Source of the DNA: Ruminococcus sp.
Lineage (GTDB): Bacteria > Bacillota > Clostridia > Oscillospirales > Acutalibacteraceae
DNA: 64,000 nt
Assembly (NCBI GenBank): GCA_017411385.1
Contig: JAFQQF010000023.1
Location: 19,597 to 83,596, forward strand
Reading direction: 5' to 3'
Shown: positions 53,693 through 61,229 of the stretch, in pieces
How positions within the stretch are numbered: the first letter of the stretch is position 1
Layout: each line of letters begins with the position of its first letter
Notes under the pieces: generated by a model
The model's database searches: none
What the model was told of the DNA's origin: nothing
Seen by the model: the letters and a program-made list of their open reading frames with translations, nothing else
Made by a program: the position numbers and the translations under genes

Positions 53693-53949
53693 ATTTCCTC
53701 CGTTTTAAACCAGACTTAATTTGCTTTAATTATATATCATAAGGCAGTTTTTTTCAATCCGGATATATGCATTATGGATGATTATTGCAGAGATTTAAGG
53801 ATAAAAAAGATTTAGCAAAATTTATTTTTGTATAAAATATGTGCAATTTTTTGTAAAAACGCAGCATAAATTAGGGGTTTATGTCATTTACAAAGCTTAA
53901 TATATATGGTAGTATATTATTAATAAAAATAAAGAATCAAGGTGGTTTT

Positions 53950-54828
53950 ATGGCAAAGAATTATAGGTATAAGTATGAGATTGTTTCTGCTGACGACAAT
54001 CTTCCCGGTAAGGTGACGTTATTTGATAAGCCCGGTCAGGAATGCTTTACTAATAAGCACTGGCATAAGAACATTGAGATTGACTATGTTCTCAAGGGCG
54101 ACCTTTGGGTTATGGCAAACAACGAGGATTTTGTTATTTCCGACGGCGAGTATATGGTTGTTAACAACGACGATATTCACCAGACCTGCGGCAAAGATCC
54201 TGCAGAGAATGTTAAGTATCTTGTGGTGCTTTATTCCTACAACTTTATCAAGGCTTATTTTGATGATTTTGAGAATTTCAGCTTCAACGTAGAGAAGAGC
54301 CCTTCTGCAAAGGCAGAAATCAAAAGACAGCTTGACCTTATTGTTGAGTGTGTAGAGGAGCAGGGCGACTTCACGGATTTGAAGATTACCTCCGCTATGA
54401 CACAGATTCTCATTGAGCTGTGCACAAAGTGTTTGGAGGAAAGAGCAAAGACTCATCCTGAAATCGAGCATGAGGAGCTGGAATACGCAAAGAAGGCTAT
54501 TGATTACATCAAGCTGAACTTCAGAGAGCGTATTACCTTGGGCGAGATTGCATCACACGTGGGACTTACTCCTACGTACTTCTCACGTTACTTTAAGCAG
54601 AACACAAGAAAAACCTTCAAGCAGTATCTTAATCTTGTTCGCTTGGAGCACGCTCTGCGTGATATTCAGACCAGCGGTATCTCTGAAACCCGTGCTGCTG
54701 TTGAAAACGGCTTCCCCAGCGTTAAAGCTTTCATTGCCGCTTTCAAGAGTGTTTACAATTGCACACTCAGCGAGTATGTAAGACAGTATCACGACATTCC
54801 GTCTATCTCTGAAATCAGACGTATATAA
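53950..54828 (+). CDS. AraC-family transcriptional regulator with cupin domain
   Basis: 292 residues from the ATG at 53950 (AAGGTGG upstream). The N-terminal cupin (about 25-110) has KHWHKNIEIDYVLKGDLWVM and GEYMVVNNDDIHQ, a sugar-sensing fold in relatives. The C-terminal double helix-turn-helix (about 185-285) has ITLGEIASHVGLTPTYFSRYFKQ and the weaker second motif AAVENGFPSVKAFIAAFKSVY. Such proteins usually activate nearby genes; the closest are the CDP-glycerol transferase/YidC-fusion pair downstream. About 250 bp of AT-rich upstream sequence has no recognised site. Confidence 0.93.
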   Translation: MAKNYRYKYEIVSADDNLPGKVTLFDKPGQECFTNKHWHKNIEIDYVLKGDLWVMANNEDFVISDGEYMVVNNDDIHQTCGKDPAENVKYLVVLYSYNFIKAYFDDFENFSFNVEKSPSAKAEIKRQLDLIVECVEEQGDFTDLKITSAMTQILIELCTKCLEERAKTHPEIEHEELEYAKKAIDYIKLNFRERITLGEIASHVGLTPTYFSRYFKQNTRKTFKQYLNLVRLEHALRDIQTSGISETRAAVENGFPSVKAFIAAFKSVYNCTLSEYVRQYHDIPSISEIRRI

Positions 54829-54941: not shown

Positions 54942-56183
54942 GTGAAGCTTTATATTGACCCTGGTACGGGCAGTATGCTTTTCACCATTTTGATTGGTGT
55001 TATCGGTGCCAGCGTGTATTCATTGCGTATGCTTTTTATCAAGCTCAGATATAAGCTGGGCGCGGGTAAGGTTGAGGATAATACCTTCAAAAAGATTCCT
55101 TATGTTATCTTCTCCGACAACAAGCGTTATTGGAATATTTTTGAGCCCATTTGCCGTGAGCTTGAAAAGCGAGGTAAAGAGGTTGTGTATATCACAGCTT
55201 CCCCTGATGACCCTGCACTCACAACCACTCTTACAAATGTTAAGGCTGAGTGCATAGAGAACGAAAACAAGCTTTTTACAAGACTTAATTTCCTCAATGC
55301 AACAATGGTGCTTTCAACCACTCCGGGCCTCGATGTTTATCAATGGAAGCGCTCCAAGGACGTGCAGTATTATGTGCATATTCCTCACGCAGCCAACGAC
55401 ATCACTCTTTACAGAATGTTCGGTCTGGATTATTACGATGCGGTTTTACTTTCAGGTGATTATCAGATTGACGATATAAGAGCTCTTGAAAATATCCGCA
55501 ATCTGCCTCAGAAGGAGCTTCTGAAGGTAGGTATTCCTTATATGGACGAAATGGCAAAGCGACTTGAAGAGGCCCCTGCGGTACCCCAGCATGAAAGAAC
55601 CGTTCTTCTGGCACCTTCTTGGGGCAAGAGTGCGATTTTCGGTGTTTACGGCTCAAGGATTATTGAAGTCCTCCAAAAAACAGGCTACAACATTATCATC
55701 AGACCTCATCCCCAGTCATTCTCATCAGAAAAGGAAATGCTTGATAAGCTTATGGCAGAGTTCCCCGAAAGTGATAAGCTTCATTGGAACAGAGATAATG
55801 ATAACTTCGATGTATTGAATAAAGCGGACATTCTTATTTCTGATTTCTCGGGTGTTGTGTTTGATTTTGCACTTGTGTATAACAAGCCTATTATCTATAC
55901 AAATCCTCAGATTGACGTAAGTGTATACGATGCATGGTGGCTCAAAACTCCCTTGTGGACAGCTTCTGCCTTGCCCAGAATCGGCCGTGAGCTTACAGAC
56001 AGCAATATGGAGAGCTTAAAAGAGCTTATTGATACCTGTATCGAGGATTCCCAGTATGCTCAGGGACGTGCAGAGGTTAAGGCTGAAACCTGGGCTAATT
56101 TTGGCTGCGGTGCACAAAAGGTTGCAGAGTATATGGTACAGAAGTACGATGCATTGACAGCGAGTGAAGAGGGTAAAGCATAA
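54942..56183 (+). CDS. CDP-glycerol glycerophosphotransferase-like protein (TagB/TagF family)
   Basis: 413 residues from a GTG at 54942 (AAGGGGG upstream). The N-terminus YIDPGTGSMLFTILIGVIGA is a short motif plus membrane helix found in front of several clostridial envelope enzymes. The catalytic half has HIPHAANDITLY, VGIPYMDEMAKRL, LLAPSWGKSAIFGVYG, IRPHPQSF and SDFSGVVFDFALVYNKPIIY, the TagF-type donor site with the His and Asp-Ser-Gly residues. The family moves glycerol-phosphate (or another polyol phosphate) from CDP onto teichoic-type polymers. Its stop overlaps the start of the YidC-sulfatase fusion by 1 bp, so the two act together. Confidence 0.9.
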   Translation: MKLYIDPGTGSMLFTILIGVIGASVYSLRMLFIKLRYKLGAGKVEDNTFKKIPYVIFSDNKRYWNIFEPICRELEKRGKEVVYITASPDDPALTTTLTNVKAECIENENKLFTRLNFLNATMVLSTTPGLDVYQWKRSKDVQYYVHIPHAANDITLYRMFGLDYYDAVLLSGDYQIDDIRALENIRNLPQKELLKVGIPYMDEMAKRLEEAPAVPQHERTVLLAPSWGKSAIFGVYGSRIIEVLQKTGYNIIIRPHPQSFSSEKEMLDKLMAEFPESDKLHWNRDNDNFDVLNKADILISDFSGVVFDFALVYNKPIIYTNPQIDVSVYDAWWLKTPLWTASALPRIGRELTDSNMESLKELIDTCIEDSQYAQGRAEVKAETWANFGCGAQKVAEYMVQKYDALTASEEGKA

Positions 56184-58972
56184 TGAGTTTTATTTCTATT
56201 TTAGAATCGATATTCATAGGGCCTCTTAAAATACTGTTTGAAATGATTTTTCAGATTGCAAACAGCGTTGTTGGGGACCCCGGTATTTCTATTATATTCC
56301 TGAGCCTTACAATGAATATCCTTGTTCTGCCCCTTTATAAGCGTGCAGATGCTATGCAGGAGGAAGCAAGGGATATTGAAGCAAAGCTTCACGACGGTGT
56401 GGCTCACATCAAAAAGTCCTTCTCCGGTGACGAGAAGATGATGATTCTCCAGACCTATTACAGACAGAACAACTACAAGCCTACACAGGCACTCAAGGGC
56501 TCTGTGTCCTTGCTTCTGGAGATTCCCTTCTTTATGGCGGCTTATCAGTTTTTGTCACATTTGGGTGCGCTCAACGGAGCAACCCTTGGTCCTATTACAG
56601 ACTTAGGCAAGCCTGACGGACTCCTTGTTATAGGCGGTATCGCTATCAATGTGCTTCCTGTAATTATGACGCTGATAAACGTTATTTCCAGTGCAATTTA
56701 CCTTAAAGGTTTTCCTCTCAAGACAAAGCTTCAGCTTTACGGAATGGCTTTGTTCTTCCTTGTGTTCCTGTATACATCTCCCTCAGGTCTTGTTTTCTAC
56801 TGGACTCTGAACAACCTGTTCTCTCTGGTGAAAACTATCTTCTACAAGTTGAAGAATCCCAAGAAGGTAATCACTATTATTTGTGCACTTGCAGGCATTG
56901 CCGTACTTGTTTGCGGTATTTTTGTCTTGGATATAAACTCCTTGAAAAAAGAAGTGCTTGTTCTGGCTGTAGGACTCGGACTTGAACTGCCCGTGTTCAT
57001 TATGGCGGCAAAAAAGCTGTTTAAGATAAAAGAGAAGAAGGCAGAGGTAACTTATCAGCCTAACAAAAAGATGTTCCTTGTCTGTTCAATTTTTCTGACG
57101 CTTCTTGTAGGTCTTTTGATACCCTCTGCGGTGATTTCTTCCTCTCCCGAGGAATTTGTGGATATGACGTATTTCTACAATCCTCTTTGGTACATTGTAA
57201 GTGCTCTGTGCCTGTCTGCAGGCTTGTTCCTTGTATGGATGAGAGTTTTCTATTGGCTTGCAACACCCAAGGGCAAATGCATTTTTGACAGAGTCGTTTT
57301 TGCTTTGAGCTTTGTAATGGTAATTAACTATATGTTCTTCGGCACCAAGATGGGTGTAATCCTTACAAATCTTCAGTACGAAACAGGACTTGCAATGACA
57401 AGAACGGAGCAGCTTGTCAATTTTGGTGTTGTGATTCTGGCTTTTGCACTTTTGTATTTTGTTGCAAAGAAATGGGGCAAGCATCTTGTTCTTGTAAGCC
57501 TTATTCTCACGGTTGCGTTGGGTGCAATGTCTGCAGTCAATGTGGTTAAAATCAACAGAGAAATCAACACTATAAAGACTGCAGGGGTTGTTGAAGAAAG
57601 CAACGGTGTTCAGCTTAAATTCAGCAAGACAGGTCAGAACGTTGTTGTTCTTTCCTTGGACCGCGCCTTGGGACAGTACATTCCCTATCTTGTAAACGAA
57701 AAGCCTGAGCTTAAAGAAATGTTTGACGGCTTTACTTACTATAAAAACGTTGTTTCCTATGGCGGTCATACCAATTTTGCTGCACCTGCTTTGGCCGGCG
57801 GTTATGAGTACACCCCTGTAGAAATGAACAAAAGAGATACAGAGAAGCTTGCAGACAAGCATAACGAAGCATTAAAGGTAATGCCTGTTATGTTCTCCGA
57901 GGCTGATTTTGATGTAACAGTATGCGACCCAGCTTATGCAGGCTATAGGGCAAACCCCGATTTGTCTATATTTGATGAGTATCCTGAAATTGAAACACAT
58001 ATTACAAAGGGTATGTTCAGAAACGGAAAAGAGGAAGTTGTACAGCTTGTAGAGAACAATCGCAGAAACTTCTTCTGCTTTAGCCTTATGAAGACTCTGC
58101 CTATGGTAATACAGTCCACTGTTTATGATAACGGTACTTATCTGAGGGCGGCTTCTGCAAATGAGGCTGAGATGTATACTCACGTTATGGATGGTTTGTC
58201 AAAGGCAAGCGGTTACAAGAAATCCTTTATGAATTGGTATGGTGTTCTTGATAATATGGATACCATCACAAAATTTGAGGATGAGGATAAGAACAACTTT
58301 ACCTTTATGTTTAATGATGCAACCCACGAGGTTGTGCTTGTGCAGGAGCCTGAGTATGTACCTGCTGCCGAGGTTGATAATACCGAGTATGACAAGGCAC
58401 ACAGCGACAGATTTACTGTTGACGGTAAGACTCTGAAGATGACATCAAGTCTTCAGATGGCTCATTATGAAACCAATATGACAGTACTGCTGAGAATCGG
58501 CGAATGGTTAGATTTCCTGAAGGAAAACGGTGTTTATGATAACACAAGAATCATCATCGTTTCCGACCACGGCTACGGTATCGGACACGATGATAACCTT
58601 AATTTCTCCGATGAGAACTACAATCATTACAATACTGAGTTTTACTTCCCCCTTCTGCTTGTAAAGGATTTCAACAGCGCAGGCTTTACTGTGTCTGATG
58701 AGTTTATGACAAACGCAGATGTTCCTACAATTGCAACATCAGGCATAATCAGTAATCCCACAAATCCCTTTACAGGTAAGGCTATCAACAGCGATGAAAA
58801 GTATGCTCATGAGCAGTGTGTTATTCTTTCCGATGACCACAGCATAGGTAAGAATAACGGAACACAGTTCTTTGCTTCCGAGTGGGCAAGTATTTCTGAA
58901 AACCTGCACAACAGGGATAACTGGCACTTTGGCGGTACTACTGAGGTGCTGACTGAGCATAAGGTTGATTAA
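56183..58972 (+). CDS. YidC/Oxa1-like domain fused to a polytopic region and a sulfatase/LtaS-like domain
   Basis: 929 residues, one uninterrupted frame. Residues 1-225 are a YidC/Oxa1 insertase fold: LEIPFFMAAYQFLSHLGAL and SPSGLVFYWTLNNLFSLVKT are hallmark strings. Residues 228-455 carry about six further helices. Residues 475-929 are an alkaline phosphatase superfamily domain, with Asp493 in VVVLSLDRA, a likely nucleophile Thr530 in YGGHTNFAAPALAGG and Asp795/His796 in IIIVSDHGYGIGHD. LtaS and phosphoethanolamine transferases use this fold on the outer face of the membrane. A normal YidC has about 210-300 residues and no such tail. With the CDP-glycerol gene fused at the ATG, a polymer-phosphate transferase role is suspected; whether the YidC part inserts proteins is unknown. 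Confidence 0.88.
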   Translation: MSFISILESIFIGPLKILFEMIFQIANSVVGDPGISIIFLSLTMNILVLPLYKRADAMQEEARDIEAKLHDGVAHIKKSFSGDEKMMILQTYYRQNNYKPTQALKGSVSLLLEIPFFMAAYQFLSHLGALNGATLGPITDLGKPDGLLVIGGIAINVLPVIMTLINVISSAIYLKGFPLKTKLQLYGMALFFLVFLYTSPSGLVFYWTLNNLFSLVKTIFYKLKNPKKVITIICALAGIAVLVCGIFVLDINSLKKEVLVLAVGLGLELPVFIMAAKKLFKIKEKKAEVTYQPNKKMFLVCSIFLTLLVGLLIPSAVISSSPEEFVDMTYFYNPLWYIVSALCLSAGLFLVWMRVFYWLATPKGKCIFDRVVFALSFVMVINYMFFGTKMGVILTNLQYETGLAMTRTEQLVNFGVVILAFALLYFVAKKWGKHLVLVSLILTVALGAMSAVNVVKINREINTIKTAGVVEESNGVQLKFSKTGQNVVVLSLDRALGQYIPYLVNEKPELKEMFDGFTYYKNVVSYGGHTNFAAPALAGGYEYTPVEMNKRDTEKLADKHNEALKVMPVMFSEADFDVTVCDPAYAGYRANPDLSIFDEYPEIETHITKGMFRNGKEEVVQLVENNRRNFFCFSLMKTLPMVIQSTVYDNGTYLRAASANEAEMYTHVMDGLSKASGYKKSFMNWYGVLDNMDTITKFEDEDKNNFTFMFNDATHEVVLVQEPEYVPAAEVDNTEYDKAHSDRFTVDGKTLKMTSSLQMAHYETNMTVLLRIGEWLDFLKENGVYDNTRIIIVSDHGYGIGHDDNLNFSDENYNHYNTEFYFPLLLVKDFNSAGFTVSDEFMTNADVPTIATSGIISNPTNPFTGKAINSDEKYAHEQCVILSDDHSIGKNNGTQFFASEWASISENLHNRDNWHFGGTTEVLTEHKVD

Positions 58973-59055: not shown

Positions 59056-60363
59056 TTAATTTACAGGCTTGTAGTATGTGTCAAGGATAAGCTCATAGAA
59101 TGCTTCTTCGTTGACGTGGTATTCGGCGTAGGTGCCGTCACTTGAAAGCTCACCGGGTACGGTTACAAAGTCAAGCTCAGAAATGCCGTTTGAAACAACA
59201 CTTGTTGCAAAGGCGGTAATAGTGGAGGGAGTCAGATTGGTTTCGCTGTTTTCAGCAACAATGTTATAAAGATTTACAGGAGTTGTCAAATCCTTCTTGG
59301 TCTGCTCCAGCGCCTTGCTTGAAAAAGCTTTCAGATAATTCACCTGACGGTTGAGTCTGTCGATAGAAGAGCTCAGATAATTTACATCTCGCTGTCGGAT
59401 GTAGCTGAGAGCGTTATCTCCATAGAGAGTCACAGCTTCACCTTCATAGTGAAATGTATGAGAGGTGTCATAAAAAGAATTGTCTATCATTGTAACAGTA
59501 ACACCGCCAACAGCGTCGTTGAGGGTTGCTATTGCGTTGAGATTAACTGCAAAATATGAATTGATGGGAAGCTGGTAAAAAAGACGGGAAACTGCGGTTG
59601 CAGTGTTAAGACAACTGGTTTTTCTGCCGTCGCCATAAGCATAAGAAAGGCAAAGCTGGTGCTTTTCTGTGCGCAGATATTCACCCTCCGGAGAGTAAAT
59701 GCCTATATCTGTGACAATGTCACGGGGAACAGCGATAACTCTGGTCTTTCCTGTGGCTGTATCCAGCGCAATCAGATAAATTGCATCTGCCTGACCGCCT
59801 GTGCCGTCATCAACACCCAGATCATATTTGTCAACACCGACACAAAGAATACTTGTCATATCAGTATTGAAGGCGTATTCTTTGTCTTTGTATGTAACCC
59901 TCTGACCGTTGTTTTCAACAGATACCTGAGCGTTTTCAATCACGGGAGCAGTCATATCAAGATTGGAATAATCGGTGAGCTTGAGAATGCCTGCATAACG
60001 GAGTATTAAGAAAAGAATAAGCAGAATAATAAGGATTATAACAGGAACCGCAACAATCCAAGCAAGGATAATAAGAAGCTTTTGCCACCAAGGACGGCTG
60101 TGCCACTTTTTATCCTTTAAGCTGAATTTTCTGTGATGCCTGTAGTGCTGTTCGGAGTTGCTTCTGACAATCTCTTGATTGTCACTGTATGCATATCTGT
60201 GCTTGCTTCTTTTGTGTTGGTTACTATGCTTTTTGTAATGAGCAAAAACATAATCATCATAATCTTCCTTGGGAAGCTCCGAGGTGTTATTTGCATCCTC
60301 TGTTGCCACGATTTTTTGCTCGTCTTCGCGTTTTATAGCTTCATCAGTATGTTCGTTGGTCAT
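59056..60363 (-). CDS. LytR-CpsA-Psr (LCP) family glycopolymer ligase
   Basis: 435 residues. The N-terminal 95 residues are cytosolic, acidic then rich in His and Arg (HYKKHSNQHKRSKHRY). A membrane helix covers about 96-118. The LCP domain (about 165-400) has ILCVGVDKY, GGQADAIYLIALD (the pyrophosphate-binding Asp), VIAVPRDIVTDIG with the conserved Arg, DAVGGVTVTM and DNALSYIRQRDVNYLSS with the last Arg pair. LCP enzymes move teichoic acids or capsules from lipid carriers to peptidoglycan. It overlaps the sortase gene by 20 bp, so it is made with it. Confidence 0.95.
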   Translation of the reverse strand: MTNEHTDEAIKREDEQKIVATEDANNTSELPKEDYDDYVFAHYKKHSNQHKRSKHRYAYSDNQEIVRSNSEQHYRHHRKFSLKDKKWHSRPWWQKLLIILAWIVAVPVIILIILLILFLILRYAGILKLTDYSNLDMTAPVIENAQVSVENNGQRVTYKDKEYAFNTDMTSILCVGVDKYDLGVDDGTGGQADAIYLIALDTATGKTRVIAVPRDIVTDIGIYSPEGEYLRTEKHQLCLSYAYGDGRKTSCLNTATAVSRLFYQLPINSYFAVNLNAIATLNDAVGGVTVTMIDNSFYDTSHTFHYEGEAVTLYGDNALSYIRQRDVNYLSSSIDRLNRQVNYLKAFSSKALEQTKKDLTTPVNLYNIVAENSETNLTPSTITAFATSVVSNGISELDFVTVPGELSSDGTYAEYHVNEEAFYELILDTYYKPVN

Positions 60364-61126
60364 CTGTCAGTACCCCCTGTACCAATAAGCGATATGATGA
60401 GTTGTAGTTTGTGCATGTGCTGAGAGTTATGATGCGGTCGTTTGTTGTAAGCTCAATGCCTTCTCTCACATTTGCATAGGCTGAGTGGGGATGGAGGCAA
60501 TCGTACAGATATTGCTCATAAACCTCATCATCTGAAAACTCAAAGGAATTGAGTATGTGTCGGTTATCGTAATCGTATGCGGCAAAAATTCGGTAGGTAA
60601 GAATATGTCCTTCGGTGTAAATATAAATATACTGGTTTTCCTCAAAGAATTCAGGGTCCTCAAAATCGTGAAGTCCTGCAAACATTGAGCCGTTGAGCAT
60701 ATTGTGGCCGTAAAGAACAGTTACACGGTCAACAAAATATCTTGTATTGTGACGCTGTGAGTAGATTGTGCCGGCAAATTCATAGTTGCCCAGATAGTTA
60801 TGGTGAAGATAAAAGTTGTCGTCCGAGTTTGAACTTTGTGCAACAGGGTAATCAATAACTGTGCCGGGAATACGAATCCACGCATAGAGGTCTTCGTTAA
60901 GCTCCTTTAACTCCTTAAAGTTAATTGGGTTTTCCACCAAAGGCTCGGTAGTTGTTACCTCTGTGGTTTCAGGCACAGGGGAGGTGGGATTTACTACCAA
61001 TGAATAATCGGTAGGGTCAATCCCGCCGGGGGTGCAGCTGCAGCCCGAAAAACAGCAAGCAAGTATAGCGAGTATAAGCGCAAGGCTCAGAATACTTGTG
61101 ATTTTCTTCAAAGTGGATTTGTGCAT
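60344..61126 (-). CDS. srtB: Class B sortase
   Basis: 260 residues from the ATG at 61126 (GAAGGTG upstream). A hydrophobic N-terminus runs into ACCFSGCSC, which may be a signal anchor or a lipobox (not a perfect one). A Thr/Pro linker follows, then the sortase beta-barrel (about 65-255). The catalytic set is His141 in LYGHNM, Cys238 in TLSTCTN and Arg246 in YRLLVQG. LNEDLYAWIRIPGTVIDYPV is the class B opening. It links proteins with a C-terminal signal to the wall or to each other. A candidate substrate with SPTTG is the next gene upstream on the same strand. Confidence 0.95.
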   Translation of the reverse strand: MHKSTLKKITSILSLALILAILACCFSGCSCTPGGIDPTDYSLVVNPTSPVPETTEVTTTEPLVENPINFKELKELNEDLYAWIRIPGTVIDYPVAQSSNSDDNFYLHHNYLGNYEFAGTIYSQRHNTRYFVDRVTVLYGHNMLNGSMFAGLHDFEDPEFFEENQYIYIYTEGHILTYRIFAAYDYDNRHILNSFEFSDDEVYEQYLYDCLHPHSAYANVREGIELTTNDRIITLSTCTNYNSSYRLLVQGVLTDDQRTY

Positions 61127-61229
61127 ATATGTCACCTTCAAAGATTAAGATATATCTCATATTTATATCTATAAATTATACATAATAATGAGTGTAATGT
61201 CAATTAACCTTTGTTTTTTAAAATAAGAA

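Follow-up and report, generated by a model that had tools for sequence, protein, structure and literature searches.

Why should a domain of the YidC membrane insertase family share one reading frame with a sulfatase/LtaS-like domain? The question is raised by a gene in a 64,000-nucleotide stretch of Ruminococcus sp. (assembly GCA_017411385.1, listed completeness 92.98%), the whole of which we call the window. The gene lies at 56183..58972 on the plus strand and encodes a YidC-LtaS/sulfatase-like fusion protein of 929 amino acids; directly upstream lies a gene for a TagF-like transferase. A preliminary description had proposed that the pair makes or transfers a phosphate-containing surface polymer, with the YidC fold serving as a membrane scaffold. 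The explanation that best fits the comparisons given below, and to which we would assign about an even chance, is a trans-membrane relay of head groups that would decorate the cell surface.

The fusion is a conserved protein family

The gene is a single ATG-started frame, open over all 929 codons, and its product passes the Pfam cut-offs for both PF02096 and PF00884, in agreement with the earlier claim that one frame unites a YidC domain, a polytopic segment and a sulfatase/LtaS-like domain. By eye, a likely ribosome-binding site, GAAGAGGG, was found at 56166..56173 (plus strand), within the end of the upstream gene. The YidC/Oxa1-family domain, which contains PSGLVFYWTLNN, occupies residues 34-221 (56282..56845, plus strand) and was verified by profile search: it matched PF02096 (60KD_IMP) with 80.5 bits (cut-off 35; E 1.8e-22), and a sequence profile of the fused proteins matched the solved YidC structures 5mg3 (E. 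coli, E 6.5e-11) and 3wo7 (E 9.7e-7). The TIGR03592 model (yidC_oxa1_cterm) gave 77 bits, narrowly below its cut-off of 84.3.

Is the fusion merely a chance event, an assembly chimera or an annotation artefact? Full-length fused homologues were present in 6/59 genomes searched, all six among the 36 genomes of the genus and including the source genome itself. We also collected 80 loci, the best 80 of at least 558 relatives from one scan of named species genomes and hence not a random sample. The fused frame was found in 80/80 of them, a few being cut by contig ends, and these include the named strains Schwartzia succinivorans DSM 10502, Butyrivibrio sp. MB2005 and [Clostridium] aminophilum DSM 10710. 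Because unbroken homologues recur in this way, the fusion is a conserved family and not an artefact of assembly or frame; the fused frame in every locus rules out a chimeric assembly, and we give an accidental origin practically no chance.

By name, most of the 80 loci come from Clostridia; S. succinivorans (L104) belongs to the Negativicutes, and one metagenome-assembled genome is named Solobacterium (Erysipelotrichia). A search of 291 genomes drawn from the class with the family profile (E 1e-30) identified nine carriers, of which some have multiple copies, and 17/80 loci held more than one fused frame. At one locus (L141:1-14757), a single TagF-like gene is surrounded by four complete YidC-sulfatase frames, the cut end of another and one that is split over two frames. 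Carriage as plasmid or phage cargo was rejected: a tblastn search with the window fusion protein hit 18 plasmid and 7 phage records, no hit covering 80% of the query, and the matches listed (10 and 5, respectively) covered the YidC part only, at most 23% of the query.

To compare the parts of the protein, 92 of 94 fused open reading frames (ORFs) were aligned with the window protein (93 rows; L090:3181-5985 and L149:1799-4534 were left out). Mean hydropathy over these rows showed seven peaks past the YidC core: two in a variable linker at residues 233-297 (56879..57073, plus strand) and five in a module of hydrophobic segments at residues 298-456 (57074..57550, plus strand). Thus, the polytopic segment described earlier is present, with seven peaks instead of about six helices. 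The five-segment module has the same placement as in membrane LtaS-type enzymes, and residues 293-589 gave low-similarity matches to separate membrane sulfatases in the homologue search. In the loops, the mean numbers of Lys plus Arg are consistent with a YidC core that ends in the cytosol and a catalytic domain that lies outside the cell. Residues 1-232 were the most similar among rows, with a mean pairwise identity of 0.62; the extracellular domain followed at 0.49, ahead of the five-helix block (0.39) and the linker (0.22).

TagF-like, YidC and LtaS-like parts travel together

The upstream gene (54942..56183, plus strand; GTG start) encodes a TagF-like transferase of 413 amino acids that matches PF04464 (Glyphos_transf) with 51.7 bits (cut-off 22.1; E 8.7e-14) and begins with a hydrophobic segment, YIDPGTGSML, a likely membrane anchor. 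Its TAA stop codon (56181-56183) shares base 56183 with the ATG of the fusion, which bears out the earlier claim of coupling to a CDP-glycerol phosphotransferase-like gene by an exact 1-bp overlap. TagF-like enzymes use CDP-activated alcohols as substrates. Like the TagF/TarF/TarL transferases, the partner and the second fusion described below belong to PF04464 and show RPHP and SDFSG motifs (by eye). Unlike them, the partner is short, has the N-terminal hydrophobic segment and scores far below the equivalog cut-offs for TarF (15.4 vs 550 bits) and TarL (15 vs 1000 bits).

The pairing is widespread. In 70/80 loci, the same strand carries a TagF-like gene no more than 250 bp from the fusion (upstream in 63, downstream in 7); the two overlap in 25 loci when starts are called mechanically. 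The TagF-like gene lies farther off in 4/80 loci and was not seen in 6/80, three of which (L117, L118 and L123) start at or near a contig end.

A second arrangement of the same parts was found in the source genome (G000), which has three YidC domains: a normal yidC, the window fusion and a YidC-TagF fusion. The latter is a protein of 707 amino acids (L002:217-2337, minus strand, equivalent to G000:C43:190097-192217) in which YidC is joined directly to a Glyphos_transf domain. One search found it in G000, G010, G036 and G028, the last copy being truncated at a contig end, and another in 4/291 class genomes, again counting the source genome. In 3/6 loci examined, its immediate neighbour is a separate LtaS-like (PF00884) gene (L062; L195, where the ends overlap; and L197). 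Since TagF-like and YidC-LtaS genes stand together in 70/80 loci, and YidC-TagF and separate LtaS-like genes in 3/6, the three parts travel together in both fusion arrangements. An approximately unbiased (AU) test of a single origin of both YidC fusions gave p-AU 0.346.

A nucleoside triphosphate (NTP) transferase gene also stands beside YidC-TagF in 3/6 loci examined (L060, L063 and L196). In the source genome it follows YidC-TagF (L060:6773-7660) and resembles a LicC-like query (E 1.9e-36), as does the L063 enzyme (1.1e-32). The L196 enzyme showed no resemblance to that query (E 1) and is linked to the others solely through the L060 query (E 1.9e-9); at L196, the YidC-TagF gene lies beside this enzyme and genes for phosphonopyruvate decarboxylase and phosphoenolpyruvate (PEP) mutase. 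NTP transferases with an extra N-terminal segment that resemble the LicC-like query occur beside both YidC fusions (L060:6773-7660, L063:2097-2930 and L069:11612-12481). In this segment Pfam reports an HTH_24 match for the L060 enzyme only, and these proteins are possibly self-regulating activation enzymes.

The YidC domain is the best-conserved part but has changed

At the place of the Arg or Lys in the hydrophilic groove of canonical YidC, the window protein has Asn45 (56315..56317, plus strand); in E. coli YidC, the residue aligned with it is the groove Arg. The position is Asn in 91/93 fused rows, with one Ser and one gap. In contrast, it was K or R (by eye) in 13/13 YidC proteins of canonical length, namely those of the 17 distinct matches in the collected loci that are 200-460 amino acids long. 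A maximum-likelihood tree was built from 17 of the 93 fused rows, these 13 canonical YidC and three YidC-TagF domains; it placed all 17 fused domains beyond a long branch (100/100) from the other two groups. The YidC part of the fusion nevertheless keeps many invariant polar residues across the 93-row alignment. Because it combines the highest conservation in the protein with an exchange of the groove Arg/Lys for Asn, the YidC part is suggested to have an active but altered role. With the YidC/Oxa1/SpoIIIJ insertases it shares the PF02096 family, a PSGLxxYW-type motif and a K/R-rich region between helices 1 and 2 (mean 10.4), and it differs from them in its fusion to a transferase, the groove Asn, the long branch and the linkage to head-group genes.

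These features bear on two other explanations. The YidC part could still insert proteins, serving the C-terminal membrane and extracellular parts of its own chain or the anchor of the TagF-like partner; after all, it passes the Pfam cut-off for YidC and matches solved YidC, and seven further hydrophobic segments and a predicted extracellular domain of 460 residues follow it in the fusion. We consider this very improbable: the groove charge is replaced by Asn in nearly all rows, the source genome has a normal yidC, located between rnpA and jag (the preliminary description had proposed to look for one next to rnpA/rpmH), and the separate LtaS-like proteins beside YidC-TagF manage without a fused insertase.

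Alternatively, YidC might do no more than offer the TagF-like partner a scaffold or a docking site in the membrane, the outer domain acting on an ordinary phospholipid such as phosphatidylglycerol (PG), as is the case in LtaS and GacH. Fusion and adjacency would both serve co-localisation, and LtaS-type enzymes work without a flippase of their own. A scaffold would hardly need a whole Oxa1 core in two fusion arrangements, however, and the YidC core is far better conserved (0.62) than the other membrane parts (0.39 and 0.22), with many invariant polar residues. The YidC domain proposed earlier is confirmed, and its proposed use as a scaffold is weakened by its being the best-conserved part and by the groove exchange; we now rate a scaffold role as quite unlikely.

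The outer domain keeps a putative LtaS-type catalytic site

The predicted extracellular domain of the alkaline phosphatase superfamily (sulfatase/LtaS-like) spans residues 471-929 (57593..58969, plus strand), with PF00884 (Sulfatase) at residues 638-847 (29 bits, cut-off 25; E 8.4e-7). In LtaS-type domains, a Thr takes up the phospho-head group of a lipid and an acceptor then receives it. The residues predicted for such chemistry, which had been proposed from the window sequence, were identical in 93/93 rows: Asp493 (57659..57661), a putative metal ligand; Thr530 (57770..57772), the putative nucleophile; and Asp795-His796 (58565..58570), putative metal ligands (all plus strand). A further His, His715 (58325..58327, plus strand), is likewise invariant in 93/93. 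Asp493, Thr530 and the Asp-His block align with the corresponding residues of five separate LtaS-like membrane proteins, and the Asp-His block also with the DH motif that LtaS (4uoo) and sulfatases have.

Profile searches of the PDB with the outer domain gave matches, most of them short, to sulfatases, phosphonate monoester hydrolase and LtaS; the overlap with LtaS (4uoo) extends over one 38-residue stretch only (E 0.0027; first block -1.9 bits), with the DH motif aligned, which is too little to establish the domain as LtaS proper. Matches with the single LtaS-like relatives L195 and L062 as queries were weak or none. GacH and EptA, like LtaS, are membrane transferases of the alkaline phosphatase superfamily. 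The window protein resembles this type in having several hydrophobic segments followed by a predicted extracellular domain with Thr and Asp-His, and differs in the whole YidC domain in front and the TagF-like partner beside it. Elsewhere in the source genome, two separate LtaS-like sulfatases stand in tandem (L061:8204-11888, on G000:C43), and each of them has the Asp, Thr and Asp-His blocks.

Head-group genes adjoin the system in relatives

What might such a system carry? Neighbouring genes of the 80 loci were clustered, and representatives were named by Pfam and NCBIfam. The named families comprise choline kinase, LicC-like NTP transferase, an EamA transporter, LicD, PEP mutase, phosphonopyruvate decarboxylase, aminoethylphosphonate (AEP) aminotransferase, and IspD-like and TagD-like cytidylyltransferases. 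Representatives of PEP mutase (406.6 bits, cut-off 319.55), phosphonopyruvate decarboxylase (471, 312.5) and AEP aminotransferase (447.4, 360.8) exceeded their equivalog cut-offs; the IspD-like and TagD-like cytidylyltransferases fell below theirs.

The presence of nine head-group families (phmmer, E 1e-12) was then compared between the loci and 20 arbitrary 20-kb control stretches, for the most part from system-bearing contigs or genomes (0.40 Mb of control sequence vs 0.63 Mb of focal sequence outside the system). At least one family was present in 39/80 loci and 0/20 controls (Fisher p 1.5e-5, a contrast that was not blind and a value that is too strong, serving as a guide only, because the families were chosen with the neighbours already seen, some focal loci supplied queries and related species are not independent). 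For five stricter families the counts were 27/80 and 0/20 (p 0.0013, to be read in the same way), and 23/80 loci had a co-directional head-group gene at a distance of at most 300 bp.

Two genomes of the same genus, G015 (L079) and G033 (L137), have a co-directional run of genes for an NTP transferase-PEP mutase fusion, an Fe-alcohol dehydrogenase, phosphonopyruvate decarboxylase, the TagF-like protein and YidC-sulfatase. In G015, PEP mutase (403.5 bits, cut-off 319.55) and the decarboxylase (466.9, 312.5) exceeded their cut-offs and the dehydrogenase (144.6) stayed under the best one (423.7); the G033 run is near-identical, its three enzymes being 94-98% identical to those of G015, and locus L198 was confirmed to contain the L137 sequence. 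Genome G169 has one copy of the system beside AEP genes; for its other copy, a LicC-like and a choline-kinase-like gene stand on the opposite strand, some 4 and 6 kb off. Locus L070 was scored as choline solely via genes about 4 and 6 kb distant on the other strand.

The enzymes encoded beside the system in relatives (choline kinase, LicC-like, PEP mutase, decarboxylase, AEP aminotransferase or IspD/TagD-like) point to interchangeable phospho- or phosphono-head groups as the cargo. Since these neighbour genes vary among loci, a plain phosphoglycerol polymer was dropped as the default cargo. Of the surface-polymer machine proposed earlier, the idea of a dedicated phosphate-related surface machine stands, and its cargo is probably not simply a phosphoglycerol polymer.

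A proposed head-group relay across the membrane

How could these parts work together? In the relay that we propose, a cytidylyltransferase would first activate a small phospho-alcohol or phosphonate, X, to CDP-X or CMP-X; candidates for X are phosphocholine, aminoethyl- or hydroxyethylphosphonate and polyol phosphate, since such genes adjoin the system in relatives. The TagF-like enzyme, with its N-terminal segment as membrane tether, would then, judging from its family, shift X-P from the nucleotide to a lipid hydroxyl of the inner leaflet. The YidC domain, with its groove lacking the positive charge, may pass the lipid-borne head group across the membrane. Outside, the LtaS-type domain would, as its conserved residues suggest, accept X-P on Thr530 at the metal site and hand it on to a glycan or polymer at the cell surface. 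TagF-like, YidC and LtaS-like parts would together form the functional unit, whichever pair is fused. The proposed three-part logic on both sides of the membrane (cytosolic lipid loading, flippase, outer transferase) resembles that of GtrA/GtrB/GtrC-type relays; the protein families are different, and a head group replaces the sugar.

We favour this relay because the three parts occur in two fusions, head-group genes are linked to them, the YidC part is conserved with a changed groove, and the topology and invariant catalytic residues fit. It is also favoured because E. coli YidC is reported to scramble lipids in liposomes in vitro, and all Oxa1-family proteins tested to do so in simulation (PMC10491306). 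The narrower proposition that a domain of the Oxa1/YidC family has given up protein insertion and now serves solely to translocate lipid-linked head groups, in a modular relay that is agnostic to the head group, we hold tentatively, at somewhat less than an even chance.

Several observations weigh against the relay. The head-group families were picked after the focal neighbours had been seen, and four of the 39 loci (L083, L089, L104 and L119) supplied queries. Conversely, 41/80 loci have none of the nine families in the examined flank, and L102, L148 and L155 have full upstream flanks with no TagF-like gene nearby. The three aligned YidC-TagF domains keep Lys or Arg in the groove, and loss of the charge is thus not required for association with head-group parts. 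A search of the source genome matched no choline kinase and no PEP mutase, and none of its four CTP_transf_like matches looks like a TagD; they resemble CoaD, NadD, a TmcAL-like nucleotidyltransferase and, by eye, a RibF-like protein. On a tree of the TagF-like proteins of 31 of the 32 labelled loci, the head-group label requires at least six changes, as few as which arose in 9/200 shuffles, and it clusters no better than on the YidC or sulfatase trees. The pattern looks as if head-group cassettes were swapped among loci. Since the label barely clusters, specificity of sub-clades for choline or phosphonate is not claimed. Finally, enzymes of the TagF family usually extend polymers, and the product could be a polymer instead of a single head group.

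This last point leads to another explanation, a polymer machine: a polyol-phosphate chain would be assembled on the inner leaflet by the TagF-like enzyme and exported under the guidance of YidC, and outside the LtaS-like domain would lengthen, ligate or trim it. The family profile of the TagF-like proteins (68 of 71 transferase ORFs plus that of the window, those of L088, L109 and L153 being left out) matched Cps3D (8qoy, a TagF-like capsule polymerase; E 2e-7), and this and the other solved relative matched, TarL, are named as polymerases. Genes for LytR-CpsA-Psr (LCP) proteins also occur near 4/80 loci and in the window (59059-60363, minus strand). On the other side stand the lack of a TagD among the four CTP_transf_like matches of the source genome, an ABC-2 exporter query that was found in 2/80 loci only, and the best-supported neighbours, which make choline and phosphonate head groups that are not known to polymerise. 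We regard such a machine as unlikely, though it deserves real weight beside the head-group relay.

If the narrower proposition of a dedicated head-group translocator holds, the relay would supply the final stage that phosphonate- and phosphocholine-tailoring pathways of Clostridia and Negativicutes still lack. As in the Pnt phosphonyl-tailoring and Lic phosphocholine pathways, genes for PEP mutase, decarboxylase, aminotransferase and NTP transferase adjoin the system in relatives; in the source genome, which gave no match for choline kinase or PEP mutase, one LicC-like NTP transferase stands beside YidC-TagF. In Rice et al. (PMC6697681), the phosphonyl-tailoring steps after Ppm-catalysed C-P bond formation are termed enigmatic, PntC cytidylyltransferases are characterised, and LicD-like phosphotransferases or glycosyltransferases are named as neighbours; a term search of the paper's text found no mention of an insertase, sulfatase or glycerophosphotransferase. 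No report of a YidC-sulfatase or YidC-TagF fusion was found in the titles and abstract openings of the open-access literature searched. The TagF-like/YidC/LtaS-like module is a new candidate for the last steps of the Pnt and Lic pathways and offers concrete candidate genes for placing phosphonates and phosphocholine on bacterial surfaces. The YidC fold has been studied as a protein insertase and chaperone, with scrambling of lipids seen in vitro (PMC7618853, PMC10491306). Its repeated linkage to cytosolic and outer head-group transferases is a natural case in which the groove may serve lipids or glycans, and suggests that the YidC insertion domain was re-used for small phosphate or phosphonate decoration of the cell surface in related gut and rumen bacteria.

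Neighbouring genes and further observations

An AraC-family regulator gene (53881-54828) lies directly 5' of the pair on the same strand. Just 3' of the pair, on the minus strand, the LCP gene is accompanied by a sortase gene, together spanning 59059-61141. Elsewhere in the source genome, two contigs (G000:C13:9834-10217 and G000:C48:12725-13108) gave the same NTP-transferase match with identical scores, perhaps through duplication in the assembly.

Unusual enzymes were also seen near the system in relatives. At L119:2907-4736, an NTP transferase is fused to a CobD-like pyridoxal phosphate (PLP) enzyme domain (Pfam, NCBIfam), and a 638-amino-acid frame at L073:1093-3006 has a CobD-like match (phmmer); a route to an ethanolamine-type head group is possible for both. 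At L070:13012-18001, the LicC- and choline-kinase-like genes stand beside what appear by eye to be a trimethylamine-type methyltransferase and a corrinoid protein. Locus L128, which also carries the YidC-sulfatase system, encodes a second, distant TagF-like protein (19% identical to that of the window) beside an ABC-2 membrane protein (Pfam) and, by eye, a likely ATPase (L128:10142-13147).

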